Shown here: positions 3,289-53,860 of the stretch, in pieces
Position numbering within the stretch: position 1 is the stretch's first letter
How the letters are laid out: each line of letters opens with the position of its first letter
IMG/VR virus record: IMGVR_UViG_3300046543_000285
Coordinates: 1-62,855 of that record
DNA: 62,855 nt
Origin: a virus
Strand: one strand, 5' to 3'
The notes under the pieces: model-generated
What the model was told of the DNA's origin: nothing
The model's input: the letters and a program-made list of their open reading frames with translations, nothing else
The model's database searches: none
Translations under genes and position numbers: made by a program

Positions 3289-3462
3289 ATGACCGAAGAA
3301 CCTGTGACCAGTGAAGATAGAAAAGCCGCAAGTTGGCGCCATACGGGTGAGTTACGTTTCAAGATACGCGCTATCAATGCGCTATGGGAAGCGGGGATGA
3401 AAGACGCTGGTTTTCTAGTTGTGGACTTACCAACGTCGGGAAAAGAAAGCACGGAGATATGA
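3289..3462 (+). CDS. Hypothetical protein, about 57 aa
   Basis: I choose MTEEPVTSED at 3289 because GGAGAG lies six bases upstream. An in-frame ATG at 3238 overlapping the previous gene would give 74 aa. The C-terminal half (IRAINALWEAGMKDAGFLVV) is a helix then strand. The stop overlaps the next start. No family is recognised. Confidence 0.5.
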   Translation: MTEEPVTSEDRKAASWRHTGELRFKIRAINALWEAGMKDAGFLVVDLPTSGKESTEI

Positions 3463-5581: not shown

Positions 5582-5750
5582 AATTGCCTCCAAGATCGTA
5601 GATGATGGCGCGCAATCGCTCGATCTCATCGGCCGCACGATGGAATAACCCATCCCGACCGCCCCAATGCACATCTATGCCCTCGCTGCGCAACTGACTA
5701 ACGATGTCATCGCCGGTCCATTCACCGACTGTGGTCTGGTTATCGCCCAT
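5571..5750 (-). CDS. Hypothetical protein, 59 aa
   Basis: Starts at 5750, sharing a TGATG junction with the recombinase stop, and so is translationally coupled to it. It contains TGDDIVSQLRSEGIDVHWGG and a C-terminal helix HRAADEIERLRAI. This arrangement is common in short phage proteins of unknown role. It overlaps the next gene by 11 bp. Confidence 0.6.
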   Translation of the reverse strand: MGDNQTTVGEWTGDDIVSQLRSEGIDVHWGGRDGLFHRAADEIERLRAIIYDLGGNYVR

Positions 5751-6382
5751 CACAGCTTTCCCTGAATGTATAGCTTCTCTCTCGCGCGCTGCACGGCCTT
5801 GATAAACCCTGGAACACTCATCTTGGCAGCGCGTGATCCTGGCTTCGTGCCAAGCTTCGCCCATTCCAATATGGCCTCGTCGGAATGCCTCGCCACGGTG
5901 CCACCCTTGCGCCCTTCTGCCCTGGCGCGAGCTAGACCGGCGATCGTCCGCTCCCGGCTCAGATCCCGCTCAAACTCAGCCATGACCGCCAACATCCCGA
6001 ACATCAGGCGCCCCGCCGCTGTGGTGGTGTCCAGTCCCGAGTTGTCCAGCAGCCGCAGGTTGGCGCCTTTCGACCGGATGCGCTCGGCAATCTGGTGCAG
6101 CGCAACATTGTTCCGCGCCAGCCGGTCGAGCTTCCACACGACAACGGTATCGCCCTCACGCACGTCCTTCATCATCGCGTCAAACTGGGGGCGCTTGATT
6201 GCGGCGCCGCTCACCTGTTCGGTATAGATGTCGGAGTGGTGGACGCCGGCACGGATCAGCGCGTCTACCTGAAGCTGTGGGTTCTGATCGACGGTCGAGA
6301 CGCGGGCGTAGCCGATCATATGTCCCGGCTCATCATCGGCCTGGAGCGGCGGCAGCGCCGGTTTCTTCCTGTTGGCCGCCAT
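5750..6382 (-). CDS. Small serine recombinase (resolvase/invertase family), 210 aa
   Basis: Catalyses site-specific strand exchange through a 5'-phosphoserine. The resolvase core is clear: GYARVSTVDQNPQLQ with the nucleophile Ser29, TEQVSGAAIKRPQFDAMM, the catalytic Arg block VVWKLDRLARN (residues 82-91), and the long E-helix GRLMFGMLAVMAEFERDLSRERT. The C-terminal 50 residues hold a basic DNA-binding region. The size matches Tn3-type resolvases or Gin/Hin invertases, not large serine integrases. The 21 residues before MIGYARVS are unusual, so translation may start there. It is divergent from the 6486 operon across a palindrome-rich promoter region and is the only recombinase seen in the genome. 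Confidence 0.92.
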   Translation of the reverse strand: MAANRKKPALPPLQADDEPGHMIGYARVSTVDQNPQLQVDALIRAGVHHSDIYTEQVSGAAIKRPQFDAMMKDVREGDTVVVWKLDRLARNNVALHQIAERIRSKGANLRLLDNSGLDTTTAAGRLMFGMLAVMAEFERDLSRERTIAGLARARAEGRKGGTVARHSDEAILEWAKLGTKPGSRAAKMSVPGFIKAVQRAREKLYIQGKL

Positions 6383-49797: not shown

Positions 49798-50244
49798 CTA
49801 TCGCAACGCCCGACCCACTGCCGCATCCGAACCCGGCCGCACCCTCTCGGCACGATCGATAGACGTGGTCAGCTTCGCGCGCTGCTTGTCATCCGTGTGA
49901 CCCTTGAATAGGTGATCACACACGCGATCGATGTCGGCCTGAACGCCAGTCGAGGGCGTCTCGCTGCCATCGTCTTCTGGAAGACGCGACACCAACTCGC
50001 GGACCATCGCGATCTCGCCTTGAAGCTGATCAATTGTAGTCTTTAGAAAACTGATCTGCTTAGCAGTTTCAATAACATGCATCGATGCCAGACGCTCCTG
50101 CAAATCATGCCACTCAGGATCGCCAAGAGGATTGGACCGCGACGGCGGTTCTGGCTCATTCGCCGCAGATCCATCATCGTCTGACCACTTAACCACCTCG
50201 CCCTCCCAAGCCTCCCAAGCGCGCCGGTTCTCTTCTACGGTCAT
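49798..50244 (-). CDS. Hypothetical helical protein, 148 aa
   Basis: ATG 50244 overlaps the NusG-like stop (TGATG). Acidic N-terminus with several Trp, then a helical region (ETAKQISFLKTTIDQLQGEI, AMVRELVSRL) suggestive of a coiled coil, and a C-terminal DDKQRAKLTTSIDRAERVRP. It could be a partner of the NusG-like factor. Unrecognised. Confidence 0.55.
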   Translation of the reverse strand: MTVEENRRAWEAWEGEVVKWSDDDGSAANEPEPPSRSNPLGDPEWHDLQERLASMHVIETAKQISFLKTTIDQLQGEIAMVRELVSRLPEDDGSETPSTGVQADIDRVCDHLFKGHTDDKQRAKLTTSIDRAERVRPGSDAAVGRALR

Positions 50245-50834
50245 CACGCCACCAACTCCACCGCATCGCGCCGAAAGCTAAACTCTCGATCGATCTCTGC
50301 AAAGAACAACAAGACGCGATCTTTATTAGAACGCTTGCAGATACCAGTGAGATGCGAAAAGTGCCCCTCGCGCGCACGCGCCTTATCATCAACCTTCAGC
50401 TTGTGCGCTAAAACCTGGCGCTCTACCACGAAGGTAGCCTCGCATTCGGCCCTCAGACGCTCCACGGCGGCATCGGGAACGTTGGCTGGCATTCTAGTGG
50501 TGGGCGACAACAGAAAGCGCCCAACCTCGCCACAACCCTGCCGTGACGTAGCGTCGCGCCCCCACTCAATCGCATTCACGTCGAAGCGCGCCAACGTGTA
50601 GCCTACCAACGCCGCCACCTCGTGCCGATCGGCACCGTGCCAGCGTTCAATCATCAACGGGAGGTAGGTTTCCATGCCGAGACGACGAAGTGCCAAATCG
50701 GCTTGTCGCTCGAAACGCGGGCGGGCGTGGAATACGTGCCATCGAATGCCGCTGCGGGGCAAAAATCGCGTCTCAGTGCGATTTACCCCACTGTCTGAGG
50801 ATAACTTACCCATTTCGCGAATGTCAAGCCCCAT
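50244..50834 (-). CDS. NusG/RfaH-like transcription factor, 196 aa
   Basis: An NGN-type domain starts at residue 31 (RWHVFHARPRFERQADLALR then RLGMETYLPLMIERW), matching the WYVLHTKPRQE...YLPL pattern of NusG/RfaH. The C-terminal 50 residues contain a KOW-like segment (DDKARAREGHFSHLTGICKR, then RVLLFFAEIDREFSFRRDAV). These proteins bind elongating RNA polymerase and suppress pausing or termination. Placed just ahead of the late operon, it probably acts as the phage's late antiterminator. The start at 50834 has GGAG six bases upstream. Confidence 0.8.
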   Translation of the reverse strand: MGLDIREMGKLSSDSGVNRTETRFLPRSGIRWHVFHARPRFERQADLALRRLGMETYLPLMIERWHGADRHEVAALVGYTLARFDVNAIEWGRDATSRQGCGEVGRFLLSPTTRMPANVPDAAVERLRAECEATFVVERQVLAHKLKVDDKARAREGHFSHLTGICKRSNKDRVLLFFAEIDREFSFRRDAVELVA

Positions 50835-51456
50835 GATGGTCTCCTGTGCCGCGCCGTGGCGACAAAACCGCAATACGCCGCGTGGTTCGATTTGGGGTGG
50901 CCACCACACGAGCCGCCTCGTCTGGTGTAATTGCCATCTCAACCCTGAGTTTTCTGGCCTCTTCCTCAGTCAGATGCGGGTCCACCCATGCGCGTCGCCG
51001 CACATTAGCCACCGCGACATCGAGCAACGGAATTACCCGGTCAACAGAGTGCTTGACCCATTCCGAAGCGCCTTCCTCGACCAGCAGAAGCTGGAAAAGC
51101 TCGGTTTCCACTTCCTTCGCTGATTCCGGTCTGACCTGCACAAAATAAACCATCTCTATTTTCAGAGATGCTGCACGCGACGCCAAGTTAGAAGTCATAC
51201 CAGCCTTAACCCGGCCGGTAGCCGATTGCCCCACGTAAACAAACGCCTCGCCAGTGGCGGTGCCCACATGACCAGAGGTAATCTTGGCTCTAACCCGCTT
51301 CGCCGCCCATTGAGCCGGCATTCGTCCTTTGTCAGGACTGCGATGGCGTTTGTTTAAAGCTGCGGACAGCCCATTCATTGGTTTGTCAAGCCTTTCCAAA
51401 ATTGTATATACGACATCCTGACACCCTACTGACATAACAGTACTGCTGCCATTCAT
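50824..51456 (-). CDS. T5orf172/GIY-YIG-type nuclease, about 210 aa
   Basis: The core AFVYVGQSATGRVKAGMTSN then LASRAASLKIEMVYFVQVRP and SAKEVETELFQLLL follows the T5orf172 (MUG113) layout: VYV...VK.GMT.N...R...L...E..L. This is a GIY-YIG-related nuclease group of phages. The first 70 residues are basic (KRHRSPDKGRMPAQWAAKRV) and may bind DNA, as may the Arg-rich tail. The start is uncertain (51456, 51435 or 51378). It is the second GIY-YIG relative in the genome, with the 3953-4297 protein. Confidence 0.7.
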   Translation of the reverse strand: MNGSSTVMSVGCQDVVYTILERLDKPMNGLSAALNKRHRSPDKGRMPAQWAAKRVRAKITSGHVGTATGEAFVYVGQSATGRVKAGMTSNLASRAASLKIEMVYFVQVRPESAKEVETELFQLLLVEEGASEWVKHSVDRVIPLLDVAVANVRRRAWVDPHLTEEEARKLRVEMAITPDEAARVVATPNRTTRRIAVLSPRRGTGDHHGA

Positions 51457-51471
51457 TCTCAATCATGAGAC

Positions 51472-51501
51472 TTGACTGAGTAGGGCCAACGGCCCTACAA
51501 C
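51472..51501 (+). promoter_or_regulatory. Promoter with palindromic operator for the small-gene/HTH operon
   Basis: -35 TTGACT (51472-51477), 18-bp spacer, -10 TACAAC (51496-51501). A perfect palindrome, GTAGGGCC-AAC-GGCCCTAC (51480-51498), fills the spacer and runs into the -10. It reads into 51532-53084, an operon ending with an HTH gene. Autoregulation through this site, as in acr-aca operons, is the natural reading. Confidence 0.75.
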
Positions 51502-51531
51502 ACTCGAACGGCCAAGACGAGGAACGGACCA

Positions 51532-51795
51532 ATGACCTACAGCACCACAACCTACCGGACGCTTCGCAACACTCGCCTGCTGGATAAGGGCGAATTGGAT
51601 GGAAAGCGGTTCATTCGGTGCATTCCTCCGCATGGTCTTTCGGCTTCTGAGCGGACTGAGGTTGTGTTGCTGGCTCTGCGTGAGATTGGGGAGCCTGGGC
51701 TTTGCTTGGCGAGTAATCCTGACTTTGGTGGGGATTACCTGCGGGTCGAAACCCACACCGCTACGTATGCCCTCGTCTGCCAGATGCTTTCCTAA
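51532..51795 (+). CDS. Small protein, first gene of an acr-aca-like operon, 87 aa
   Basis: First of five unrecognised small genes driven by the palindrome-containing promoter. It begins MTYSTTTYRTLRNTRLLDKG and continues with alternating strands and a helix (ASERTEVVLLALREIGEPGL) and ETHTATYALVCQML at the end, suggesting a compact alpha/beta domain. GAGGAACGG precedes the ATG. A candidate anti-defence protein by context only. Confidence 0.6.
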   Translation: MTYSTTTYRTLRNTRLLDKGELDGKRFIRCIPPHGLSASERTEVVLLALREIGEPGLCLASNPDFGGDYLRVETHTATYALVCQMLS

Positions 51796-51840
51796 CAACC
51801 ACCCCGAGGCGATCAAGCCAGGGCAACAAGGAACCGGAAA

Positions 51841-52071
51841 ATGACCAACCAGATAACCACCGAAGAACTCGCAGCCCTGCAAGCCTTTGCCGCCGAGAGT
51901 GGTCGTTGCTGGAAGCGTGATCTGATGAACACCTACTGGTACAACGCTCGCATCTGGCGCGACGCAGACGGCTCCACGTTCCACGGCTCGGTGCTGCACG
52001 GGCTTCGCAATCGCCTTGGCGCTTCGTGGCTTGTTGGTTTCAAGCTTCCCACCACCCAGACGGAGGGCTGA
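51841..52071 (+). CDS. Small protein of the acr-aca-like operon, 76 aa
   Basis: Reads MTNQITTEELAALQAFAAES, then RCWKRDLMNTYWYNARIWRD and a Gly/His-rich loop (GSTFHGSVLHGLRNRLGASW). A helix followed by an aromatic-rich region, small and single-domain. AAGGAACC precedes the start. It ends 3 bp before the next gene. No family is recognised. Confidence 0.6.
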   Translation: MTNQITTEELAALQAFAAESGRCWKRDLMNTYWYNARIWRDADGSTFHGSVLHGLRNRLGASWLVGFKLPTTQTEG

Positions 52072-52074
52072 GCG

Positions 52075-52260
52075 ATGACCCAAGAAATCGCAATGGTAAT
52101 CTACCCGCAAGGATCGCGTTGGCTTTGGCATATCACGGTCGATGGCGTGAAGCAGGCGCAAGACACGCGGCGCGCTTATGGGACGCTCAGCGGCGCAGTC
52201 GCTGCCGCGCGACAGGCGCACATCGACTACATGGCTCGCTTCGCGCCAGTGGAGGGCTGA
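52075..52260 (+). CDS. Small protein of the acr-aca-like operon, 61 aa
   Basis: Start 3 bp after the previous stop, inside the recurrent module GGAGGGCTGAGCG-ATG. Two strands with Trp (SRWLWHITVDGVKQAQDTRR), then a helix (GTLSGAVAAARQAHIDYMAR). It resembles small one-helix-packed-on-a-sheet proteins. No family is recognised. Confidence 0.6.
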   Translation: MTQEIAMVIYPQGSRWLWHITVDGVKQAQDTRRAYGTLSGAVAAARQAHIDYMARFAPVEG

Positions 52261-52263
52261 CCA

Positions 52264-52566
52264 ATGACCATCACCTACGAAGCCACCCAAGAACGCCCGA
52301 ACTACTGGGACGGCCTGCGCCACGATCGGCGCGCTGACGATGGTCGCAATGGCGACTGGCGCATGTCGCACACCCGGGTGGCTCGCGAGTGCGCGACGCT
52401 GGAGGACGCCGAGAAGTATGCGCGTCGCATTCTGGGCCAGCGGCCGGGGGTGCCGGTTGAGATAACCCGGCGCGAGAGAGATTTTTACCAAGTGACAGTC
52501 GTCGCCAGGGTGTCGCGTGACGCGTTGGGGCGCACTTGGACTGACATTTTGCAGTGGGAGGTTTGA
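52264..52566 (+). CDS. Small protein of the acr-aca-like operon, 100 aa
   Basis: Start 3 bp after the previous stop with GGAGGGCTGACCA upstream. Charged N-terminal half (YWDGLRHDRRADDGRNGDWR), a helix (ATLEDAEKYARRILGQRPGV) and a two-strand C-terminus (FYQVTVVARVSRDALGRTW). The T.EDAEKYARRI piece resembles small domains in other phage accessory proteins. Function unknown. Confidence 0.6.
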   Translation: MTITYEATQERPNYWDGLRHDRRADDGRNGDWRMSHTRVARECATLEDAEKYARRILGQRPGVPVEITRRERDFYQVTVVARVSRDALGRTWTDILQWEV

Positions 52567-52569
52567 GCG

Positions 52570-52827
52570 ATGGCCAAGCTTGCAATCCCCACGATCCACA
52601 TGAACGGCACTGCGGCCCAAGACCTCCTTTCCGACATCTGCGCTGCGCTTGAAGCTATTCGTAACGCTGAAGAGGCGATGAAGGCCGTCTGCCCGAACGG
52701 TCGCGATTATTACCCGCAGGGGCCAGACGCGATCCAAGAGGCGCTCCGACAGCACGCCAATCGCCTGCACAACCTCAGAGCCGTCTATTCCGAACTGGAA
52801 GAGATCGGCGAAGCGATCACCAGTTGA
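52570..52827 (+). CDS. Small helical protein of the acr-aca-like operon, 85 aa
   Basis: Start 3 bp after the previous stop, same GGGAGGTTTGAGCG module. Apart from the N-terminus (MAKLAIPTIHMNGTAAQDLL) it is helical (SDICAALEAIRNAEEAMKAV, ALRQHANRLHNLRAVYSELE). The stop overlaps the TTG start of the HTH gene, so the two are coupled. Function unknown. Confidence 0.65.
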   Translation: MAKLAIPTIHMNGTAAQDLLSDICAALEAIRNAEEAMKAVCPNGRDYYPQGPDAIQEALRQHANRLHNLRAVYSELEEIGEAITS

Positions 52828-53084
52828 CACCCACCGAAATCCGCTCCCGCCGCCTGTCCTTGGGGCTAACCCAGGGGCAGGTTGCGCGTTTGATCGGGGT
52901 GGATGCGCGTACGTGGAGGAGGTGGGAGATGTCCACCCCCACGCTACAGCCCCCCAGAACGTCGGAGACGGCGCCCAGCGTCTCCTCCGCCCGTTGTATG
53001 CCAGAACCGGTCCAGCGCCTTCTACGCCTCTGTGAGCGCCCGGAGGTGAGGGGGTGGCTGGAGGAGGAGATTGCTCAAAACTGA
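52824..53084 (+). CDS. HTH regulator, Aca-like, 86 aa
   Basis: Last gene of the operon. TEIRSRRLSLGLTQGQVARL then IGVDARTWRRWEM is a helix-turn-helix in which the ARTWRRWE recognition helix resembles the anti-CRISPR-associated (Aca) regulators. The C-terminus MPEPVQRLLRLCERPEVRGW is helical. It starts at TTG inside the previous stop (TTGA), which would keep its level low, and it probably binds the palindrome at 51480-51498. It could also be an ordinary XRE regulator. Confidence 0.75.
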   Translation: MTPTEIRSRRLSLGLTQGQVARLIGVDARTWRRWEMSTPTLQPPRTSETAPSVSSARCMPEPVQRLLRLCERPEVRGWLEEEIAQN

Positions 53085-53114: not shown

Positions 53115-53678
53115 TCACGCCGCCACCTTCGGATCGTGCAGAAACGCGAACTCGGAATCCACCGCCCAATCGTGGGCGTAGCCTTCCGATCGTTGGACGG
53201 TTGACCGAACGCGTGCGCCGGGGAAGTGAACCTTGGCCTGGTAAGTGACTTCCAGCGTCGGGAGGACATTGGCCAACTCTTCCATCGTCCAAACGACACG
53301 CTCGCGCGCGGCTCCCTGGTCGTGCTGGAGGGCGCTGGCCTCCGCAAAGGTCCGACACACCACCAGCACGCGCCCATCGGCCAGCGGGGCTTCCCAGTGG
53401 TCGCCTGGATCGATGCGCGCGTGTCCCCTCGCCTCCGCTTCAGCCTCCATGGCGCGAATGGCCTGGGCGATCTTTGGGGCGAGACGCTCGACGGCGGCGG
53501 CGTCGCCATGGGCGATGGCTGTGGCATAGCGTCGCCAGCCTTCTCTCCAGTTGGTCAACGTGCCGGCACTCACGAGGGACTCCAATCTAGCCACGCCCCA
53601 GCGTAGCTCAGCTGCCCGCGCCACGGCGTCGGTGGGAACGATGGCTACCTGGATGCGATCGTGGTCGGTGGGGGTCAC
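53115..53678 (-). CDS. Hypothetical protein, 187 aa
   Basis: Starts at a GTG overlapping the upstream stop (GTGA). N-terminal helices (VARAAELRWGVARLESLVSA, WREGWRRYATAIAHGDAAAV, RLAPKIAQAIRAMEAEAEAR) and a C-terminal alpha/beta part (DHWEAPLADGRVLVVCRTFA, WTMEELANVLPTLEVTYQAK). It is the last gene of the replication operon. No family is recognised. Confidence 0.6.
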   Translation of the reverse strand: MTPTDHDRIQVAIVPTDAVARAAELRWGVARLESLVSAGTLTNWREGWRRYATAIAHGDAAAVERLAPKIAQAIRAMEAEAEARGHARIDPGDHWEAPLADGRVLVVCRTFAEASALQHDQGAARERVVWTMEELANVLPTLEVTYQAKVHFPGARVRSTVQRSEGYAHDWAVDSEFAFLHDPKVAA

Positions 53679-53860
53679 GGTGTTTTCCTTCCCAGAATTT
53701 CCTGCCACTCGGCGTTCACCTTGGCCCGCCACTCCTCCATCGCCTGCTTGGTCCATGGGCGCAGGTTACCGATGGCTGGTCCGGTCAAGCCGCAGCAGCA
53801 GGCGTCGTTCTCGTTGTCTGGCCAGAAGAGGCAATCGGGGTGGTGGGTGAGGTCGGTCAT
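53675..53860 (-). CDS. Small zinc-binding-like protein, 61 aa
   Basis: HHPDCLFWPDNENDACCCGL suggests a metal site (H-x3-C...C-C-C). The C-terminus is a helix (TKQAMEEWRAKVNAEWQEIL). ATGA and GTGA overlaps at both ends. This type of short HxxxC...CxC protein is frequent in phages of alphaproteobacteria; role unknown. Confidence 0.6.
   Translation of the reverse strand: MTDLTHHPDCLFWPDNENDACCCGLTGPAIGNLRPWTKQAMEEWRAKVNAEWQEILGRKTP

Follow-up and report, generated by a model that had tools for sequence, protein, structure and literature searches.

A probable self-repressed accessory cassette with an Aca-like HTH protein and interchangeable cargo genes in a phage genome

Anti-defence genes have been found mainly through their association with a few marker regulators. 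For the Aca families, it has been shown that early expression of the operon is followed by its shut-off through binding of the HTH protein in the promoter, and just 15% of Aca-like proteins have a known acr gene as their neighbor (PMC9410906). Among the closest described systems is the acrIC7-acrIC6-aca10 operon of Pseudomonas citronellolis, in which the minimal operator of Aca10 is an 8-3-8 repeat, ATACGCTC-ATT-GAGCGTAT (PMC9410881; PDB entry 7xi5, which is Aca10 according to that paper and the PDB title). This operon and the one described here both consist of small genes with a terminal HTH gene, and both have a 19-bp 8-3-8 palindrome over the promoter; however, the two operator sequences differ, and our operon contains no known acr gene. 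A second precedent is acrIF8-aca2 of Pectobacterium phage ZF40 (PMC8434428), where the HTH protein is likewise encoded at the end of a phage operon, although our HTH protein is shorter than Aca2 and its operator is unlike that of Aca2 (judged from the Aca2 probe in PMC9410881). The HTH regulator p71 of Paracoccus phage Pkon1 (phrog_7950/phrog_14076) shares the operator, its position in the promoter and an overlapping small gene ahead of the HTH gene with our locus, but its cargo differs. Finally, there are the anti-defence and polyvalent-protein clusters (PMC7648647; PMC5512222): acr loci are accompanied by orphan methyltransferases (PMC7648647), and polyvalent counter-defence proteins include RadC domains and methylases (PMC5512222). 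RadC and methyltransferase-type proteins are also cargo behind the same operator in relatives of our phage, whereas none of these genes is present in the operon described here.

The DNA that we analyzed (the window, 62,855 nucleotides) comes from the IMG/VR virus record IMGVR_UViG_3300046543_000285, and its genes include those for a primase/helicase, terminase, portal and methyltransferase. The stretch with the operon was found, identical, in a second sample (L001). The terminase is nearest to those of an uncultured phage and of Pseudomonas phages, LKA5 and H66 among them, at 41%; the accessory genes and the HTH gene are closest to those of phages of Rhizobium and Paracoccus, and the host is plausibly an alphaproteobacterium. 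Elsewhere, the window encodes a CI-like HTH regulator (1129–1740) and a serine recombinase of the DNA-invertase type (5750–6382), which point to a possibly temperate or phase-variable phage.

Layout and accessory status of the operon

The features of the locus are, from left to right:

50244–50942, minus strand: left flank, NusG-domain protein, with an ortholog in record G002
50824–51462, minus strand: L212, divergent neighbor, true start uncertain, missing in the relative G002 too
51472–51477, plus strand: −35 element TTGACT, aligning with the TTGACN before the operator in L071, L064, L067, L068, L069 and L082
51480–51498, plus strand: palindrome GTAGGGCC-AAC-GGCCCTAC, a perfect 8-3-8 inverted repeat and putative operator, whose motif recurs in promoters of homologous HTH loci
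51481–51497, plus strand: conserved operator core TAGGGCC-N3-GGCCCTA, from comparison with relatives
51496–51501, plus strand: −10 element TACAAC, overlapping the last arm of the operator
51532–51795, plus strand: gene 1, 87 aa, without a homolog in our searches, coding score above zero but low
51841–52071, plus strand: gene 2, 76 aa, sharing 64% identity with a protein of Rhizobium phage RHph_I20 annotated as hypothetical
52075–52260, plus strand: gene 3, 61 aa, likewise without a homolog in our searches, codon usage like that of the phage's large genes
52264–52566, plus strand: gene 4, 100 aa, homologs of 66–71% identity in viral contigs L038 and L039
52570–52827, plus strand: gene 5, 85 aa, PT[IV]HxNGT...RDYYPQGxDA family, widespread in phages
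52824–53084, plus strand: HTH protein, 86 aa, TTG start inside the gene 5 stop, XRE fold of the Aca/MqsA/HigA type with ARTWRRWE as recognition helix
53070–53103, no strand: hairpin with 14-bp arms (93%), lying between convergent genes and extending over the HTH stop
53115–53756, minus strand: R213, right flank, whose G002 ortholog abuts the left-flank ortholog

A preliminary description, made from the letters of the window, had read this locus as an acr-aca-like operon. Its account of the layout is borne out: every open reading frame and coordinate of the five small genes (51532–52827) checks out, the HTH gene that follows does start at TTG 52824 within the TGA of gene 5, and the unit runs on the plus strand against genes that are leftward on both sides. 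The three alike junctions with 3-bp spacing can likewise be read directly, as GGAGGGCTGAGCGATG, GGAGGGCTGACCAATG and GGAGGTTTGAGCGATG, each being TGA-N3-ATG with GGAGG ahead. The closing inverted repeat had been called a terminator. The repeat itself is real and folds stably (z about −2.5 and −3.1), but there is no T-tract on either strand, and it is therefore not a standard intrinsic terminator. A search of Rfam gave nothing relevant for the operon or for the leaders of its relatives.

Two of the neighbors deserve mention in their own right. The phage-encoded protein of the left flank matches the NusG domain above the cut-off (PF02357, E 1.4e−6) and is possibly an RfaH-like antiterminator. 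L212 contains a motif, VYVGQS...VKAGMTSN...R, that by eye is GIY-YIG/T5orf172-like, with no match in Pfam.

The nearest relative that we found is L004 in the 43-kb record G002, with a primase 80% identical to that of the window. There, 25 bp separate the end of the R213 ortholog (8160) from the start (8186) of the gene orthologous to the NusG-like left flank, and the locus lacks both the operon and L212. When all six operon proteins were searched in the whole of G002, which is perhaps an incomplete record, no match was found. The operon's absence from G002 places the unit outside the phage's core machinery. Both marks of a moron-like cassette, a promoter of its own and absence from the same locus of a close relative, were found. 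The preliminary description had named core genes conserved in all relatives as an observation that would speak against it; this was looked for, and what we found was an operon absent from the nearest relative. Nor was anything else found that it had named in this way.

The operator and the HTH protein

The promoter had been proposed as TTGACT-N18-TACAAC. Its hexamers and 18-nt spacing stand, but the −10 element is weak and a generic promoter scan does not list it; consequently, the promoter is supported mainly by comparison with relatives. The palindrome sits between the hexamers, its last arm overlapping the −10 element, and is perfect, as had been noted. In dinucleotide shuffles of the 135-bp intergenic region, a perfect palindrome with arms of at least 8 nt arose in 0.55% (P about 0.005), and nowhere else in the window is there a second copy with three or fewer arm mismatches.

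HTH homologs were taken from a bacterial genome (L058), viral contigs (L060–L070) and annotated phages (L071–L077), and all loci were scanned with TAGSGCCNNNGGCSCTA. This motif had been drawn up with the window and Pkon1 already in view; in Pkon1, TTGACAAC-TAGCGCC-ATT-GGCGCTA-AATC lies ahead of a small gene and the HTH gene. The 106 kb of HTH loci yielded six sites with at most one mismatch, where Markov resampling predicts 0.17; without the motif-defining Pkon1, five remain (L064, L066, L067 twice and L075). The 285 kb of other loci contained only two such sites; the pattern itself had served to fetch both, so that they were not counted as independent, and neither lies in an evident promoter. 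In 385 genomes sampled around G399 from its class, the operator pattern turned up at just two sites, neither of them in an evident promoter. Searches of whole records gave a single site in five of the six records that hold one (Pkon1, L064, L066, L069 and ppBeUSDA76-2), three clustered sites in L067, and none in G002.

The promoters themselves align, with TTGACN followed by 2–3 nt and the operator, whose last TA opens the −10 element in most relatives. An out-of-sample locus on Tritonibacter plasmid p5 carries a near-identical palindrome, in TTGACA-G-TAGGGGC-ATTT-GCCCCTA-TTTTGT, before a 119-aa gene and an HTH gene. Two observations count against the reading of the unit as a self-repressed cassette of this kind: the motif was not found in several loci with more distant HTH proteins (L060, L061, L065, L072 and L074), and a 5′ leader hairpin common to L058, L064, L069 and L071 is missing in the window. 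As far as sequence comparison can tell, the phylogenetic footprint is that of an operator dedicated to the HTH protein's own operon. In the open literature that we searched, coverage of which is incomplete, no description of the TAGGGCC operator was found, the papers returned being unrelated, and the operator and its HTH lineage appear to be undescribed within the Aca-type kind of operon.

The leaders of the relatives have features of their own. In these loci, a conserved hairpin with the sequence GGGCAATGAAGCCC-GCC, or a variant of it, lies behind the operator promoter (L071, 2270–2300; L064, 3155–3185; L058, 1290–1315; L069, 2025–2045; L066, 2765–2790; L082, 2590–2610), possibly as an RNA-level control or a shared leader. 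Gammaproteobacterial phages with related HTH proteins (L076, L077, L080 and L081) have another common leader, GGTGAGGCAnGGGTGCC. In L068, an exactly repeated operator promoter, TTGACATAGAGGGTCTATCGCCCTATAGTGG, is found at 3373 and 4273, before two small-gene groups that flank the HTH gene.

The HTH gene is atypical in codon usage (−0.13 bits/codon). Searches of Pfam and NCBIfam returned sub-threshold matches of its product to XRE, MqsA and VC1465 models, the score of Pfam Aca2_YdiL being far below its cut-off, and the phrog_7950 and phrog_14076 profiles match it weakly (E 7e−6 and 4e−5). In a search of all PDB sequences, 7xi5 ranks first, at a weak E of 0.001, followed by a designed 434-type protein, Aca3 (0.02) and Aca2 (0.06), the last extending across nearly the whole length (residues 1–84; structural Z 7.6). 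As to the proposed kinship with Aca proteins, Aca10 ranks best and Aca3 and Aca2 are also matched, but every one of these matches is weak, with E values of 0.001 or worse. Contacts Q22 and R34 of Aca10 correspond to the identical Q17 and R29, whereas in an ungapped alignment Q37 is replaced by R32 and R44, which is not conserved, by P39; Aca10 has 65 aa, in contrast to the 86 aa of our protein with its long loop after the recognition helix. A single-sequence model (mean pLDDT 67.7) has a five-helix XRE fold, again with the long loop, and its structural neighbors, at similar Z, are Aca2, Aca1, Aca10, HigA2, MqsA and POU domains. The modeled fold is Aca/HigA/MqsA-like, a fold that does not by itself settle function.

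The cargo genes and their possible roles

The five small genes had been described as unrecognized, and they are indeed without a family in Pfam, NCBIfam, PHROGs and PADLOC: searches of these collections gave no usable match and no Acr or anti-defence family. Genes 2, 4 and 5 are real coding genes, because they have homologs in other phages, and searches of the PDB with these three found nothing. Genes 1 and 3 are without homologs, so that their coding status rests on frame and codon usage, more weakly so for gene 1. The one relative of gene 2, in RHph_I20, lies within a row of small hypothetical genes; gene 2 was present in none of 398 genomes of the phylum, in a search run without a positive control. 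In L039, the homolog of gene 4 belongs to a small-gene unit that opposes its leftward neighbors, and it overlaps by 4 bp an HTH-like gene (recognized by eye, with no Pfam match) that is followed by an HTH_31 protein. Gene 4 was not found among the genome contigs. The predicted fold of its product is of low confidence (pLDDT 58.9), and we dismissed the Foldseek matches of that model as noise. The gene 5 family occurs in phages of many hosts, with genomes of 39 to 309 kb, and is rare in cellular genomes, where we found it in only four metagenome-assembled genomes. In L031, a homolog of gene 5 lies two genes ahead of an HTH gene, and the gene behind the latter is convergent with it. The promoter of this small-gene array (L031, 4033–4068) contains half-sites, TTGAC-TAGGGCA...TGCCCTA, that are operator-like, despite which the HTH protein of L031 is of another type, with the recognition helix PRTVRRW.

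Homologs of our HTH gene also stand behind small genes, commonly with a 4-bp overlap, and the cargo between operator and HTH gene varies from phage to phage:

Pkon1: 62-aa protein with a putative membrane segment (by eye)
L058: 58-aa relative of the 62-aa Pkon1 protein, 44% identical
L064: 84-aa phrog_6004 protein and 155-aa protein
L066: J-domain protein and 218-aa protein
L067: RadC
L069: 135-aa protein and a DUF4942/methyltransferase protein, the latter resembling phage proteins of very large size

None of the cargo proteins of relatives that were tested resembles those of genes 1–5. HTH cassettes on the opposite strand or inserted among late genes are seen in Pkon1, in Aeromonas phages 56 and 62AhydR11PP, and in a Mu-like prophage of Pannonibacter, whose baseplate module is interrupted by three small genes and an HTH gene. 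The two Aeromonas phages have nearly identical HTH genes, of the more distant type, at the same site among the tail genes, with different small genes. The RadC and methyltransferase cargo of the relatives would be tied to counter-defence through guilt by association, which is no proof.

Taken together, we consider it probable that the unit is an accessory, self-repressed phage cassette, in which an Aca-like HTH protein goes with interchangeable cargo; the regulatory side of this reading is well supported by the comparison of loci. After entry of the DNA, the unrepressed promoter, of the sigma-70 type, would give a burst of the five small proteins, and the HTH protein would be made last, through translational coupling. 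Presumably as a dimer, it would then occupy the palindrome in the spacer between −35 and −10 and shut off its own promoter. The sequences themselves show the layout, the accessory status, the joint conservation of HTH protein and operator, and the difference in cargo: across mainly alphaproteobacterial phages, the HTH family keeps the TAGGGCC-N3-GGCCCTA operator, and the cargo between operator and HTH gene would be interchangeable. We infer that the cargo supports infection early on; among such roles, counter-defence of any kind would be the single most likely, at somewhat less than an even chance, and for an anti-CRISPR role in particular the probability is low.

Could the palindrome be a chance repeat in the promoter, rather than an operator? 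About 12 comparable repeats occur per shuffled window of equal size, but there is only a 0.5% chance of one within the intergenic region, and the palindrome is conserved in homologous HTH loci, which makes this a highly improbable explanation. It is also quite unlikely that the HTH protein is an antitoxin or a lysogeny regulator (MqsA/HigA/Cro-like), and not an Aca-like autorepressor. Such a role would accord with the matches to the NCBIfam MqsA and VC1465 models and to the HigA2 and MqsA structures in the PDB; however, no toxin-like family adjoins the HTH gene, the separate CI-like regulator at 1129–1740 is present, and the operator is single, in the protein's own promoter, with no second site within three mismatches. 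We also considered gene 5 and the HTH gene as a toxin-antitoxin pair, which found no support: no toxin family of Pfam, NCBIfam, PHROGs or PADLOC matched gene 5 or its neighbors.

The remaining question concerns the cargo of the self-repressed cassette. If this were a true acr-aca operon, its HTH protein would be an Aca, and one or more of the five small proteins would inhibit a CRISPR-Cas system in the host. The layout matches acr-aca promoters (PMC9410906), Aca10, Aca3 and Aca2 are among the best PDB matches, and the unit is accessory, absent from G002. Against this stand the lack of a match to an Acr family for any cargo protein, the occurrence of gene 5 in such very different phages, and the small share of Aca-like genes near known acr genes (PMC9410906). 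We regard a true acr-aca operon as unlikely. From the preliminary description, then, the acr-aca form survives, with an operator in the promoter, small accessory genes and a terminal Aca-like HTH gene, but the anti-CRISPR function attached to it is not supported, nor can the five proteins count as proven anti-defence factors. Close to an even chance can be given to a general early accessory operon with an autoregulator, serving host takeover, metabolism, superinfection exclusion or phage-phage conflict, and not anti-defence. Homologs of genes 2 and 5 lie elsewhere in arrays of small hypothetical genes, the HTH family is also found beside terminase or replication genes, and some small cargo proteins have a putative transmembrane segment, by eye (L058 and L071). 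In contrast, gain and loss of cassettes and swapping of cargo, above all at the one site in Aeromonas phages 56 and 62AhydR11PP, are typical of conflict genes, and some of the relatives' cargo resembles components of polyvalent proteins.

The marker pair of HTH protein and operator, defined by comparison, provides a search handle for alphaproteobacterial phages, and the window and about ten related loci supply concrete lists of genes that can be tested. It also poses a direct question of binding, between one protein and one 19-bp site. We tentatively propose, as a possibility that we would rate below an even chance and below counter-defence as such, that the TAGGGCC-box cassettes represent a new class of Aca-like units, chiefly in alphaproteobacterial phages, and that their cargo, including the five genes of the window, consists of undiscovered anti-defence proteins. 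If this class is true, a search with the operator and the HTH protein would find many more cassettes, and the two together may mark anti-defence genes that are as yet undiscovered.
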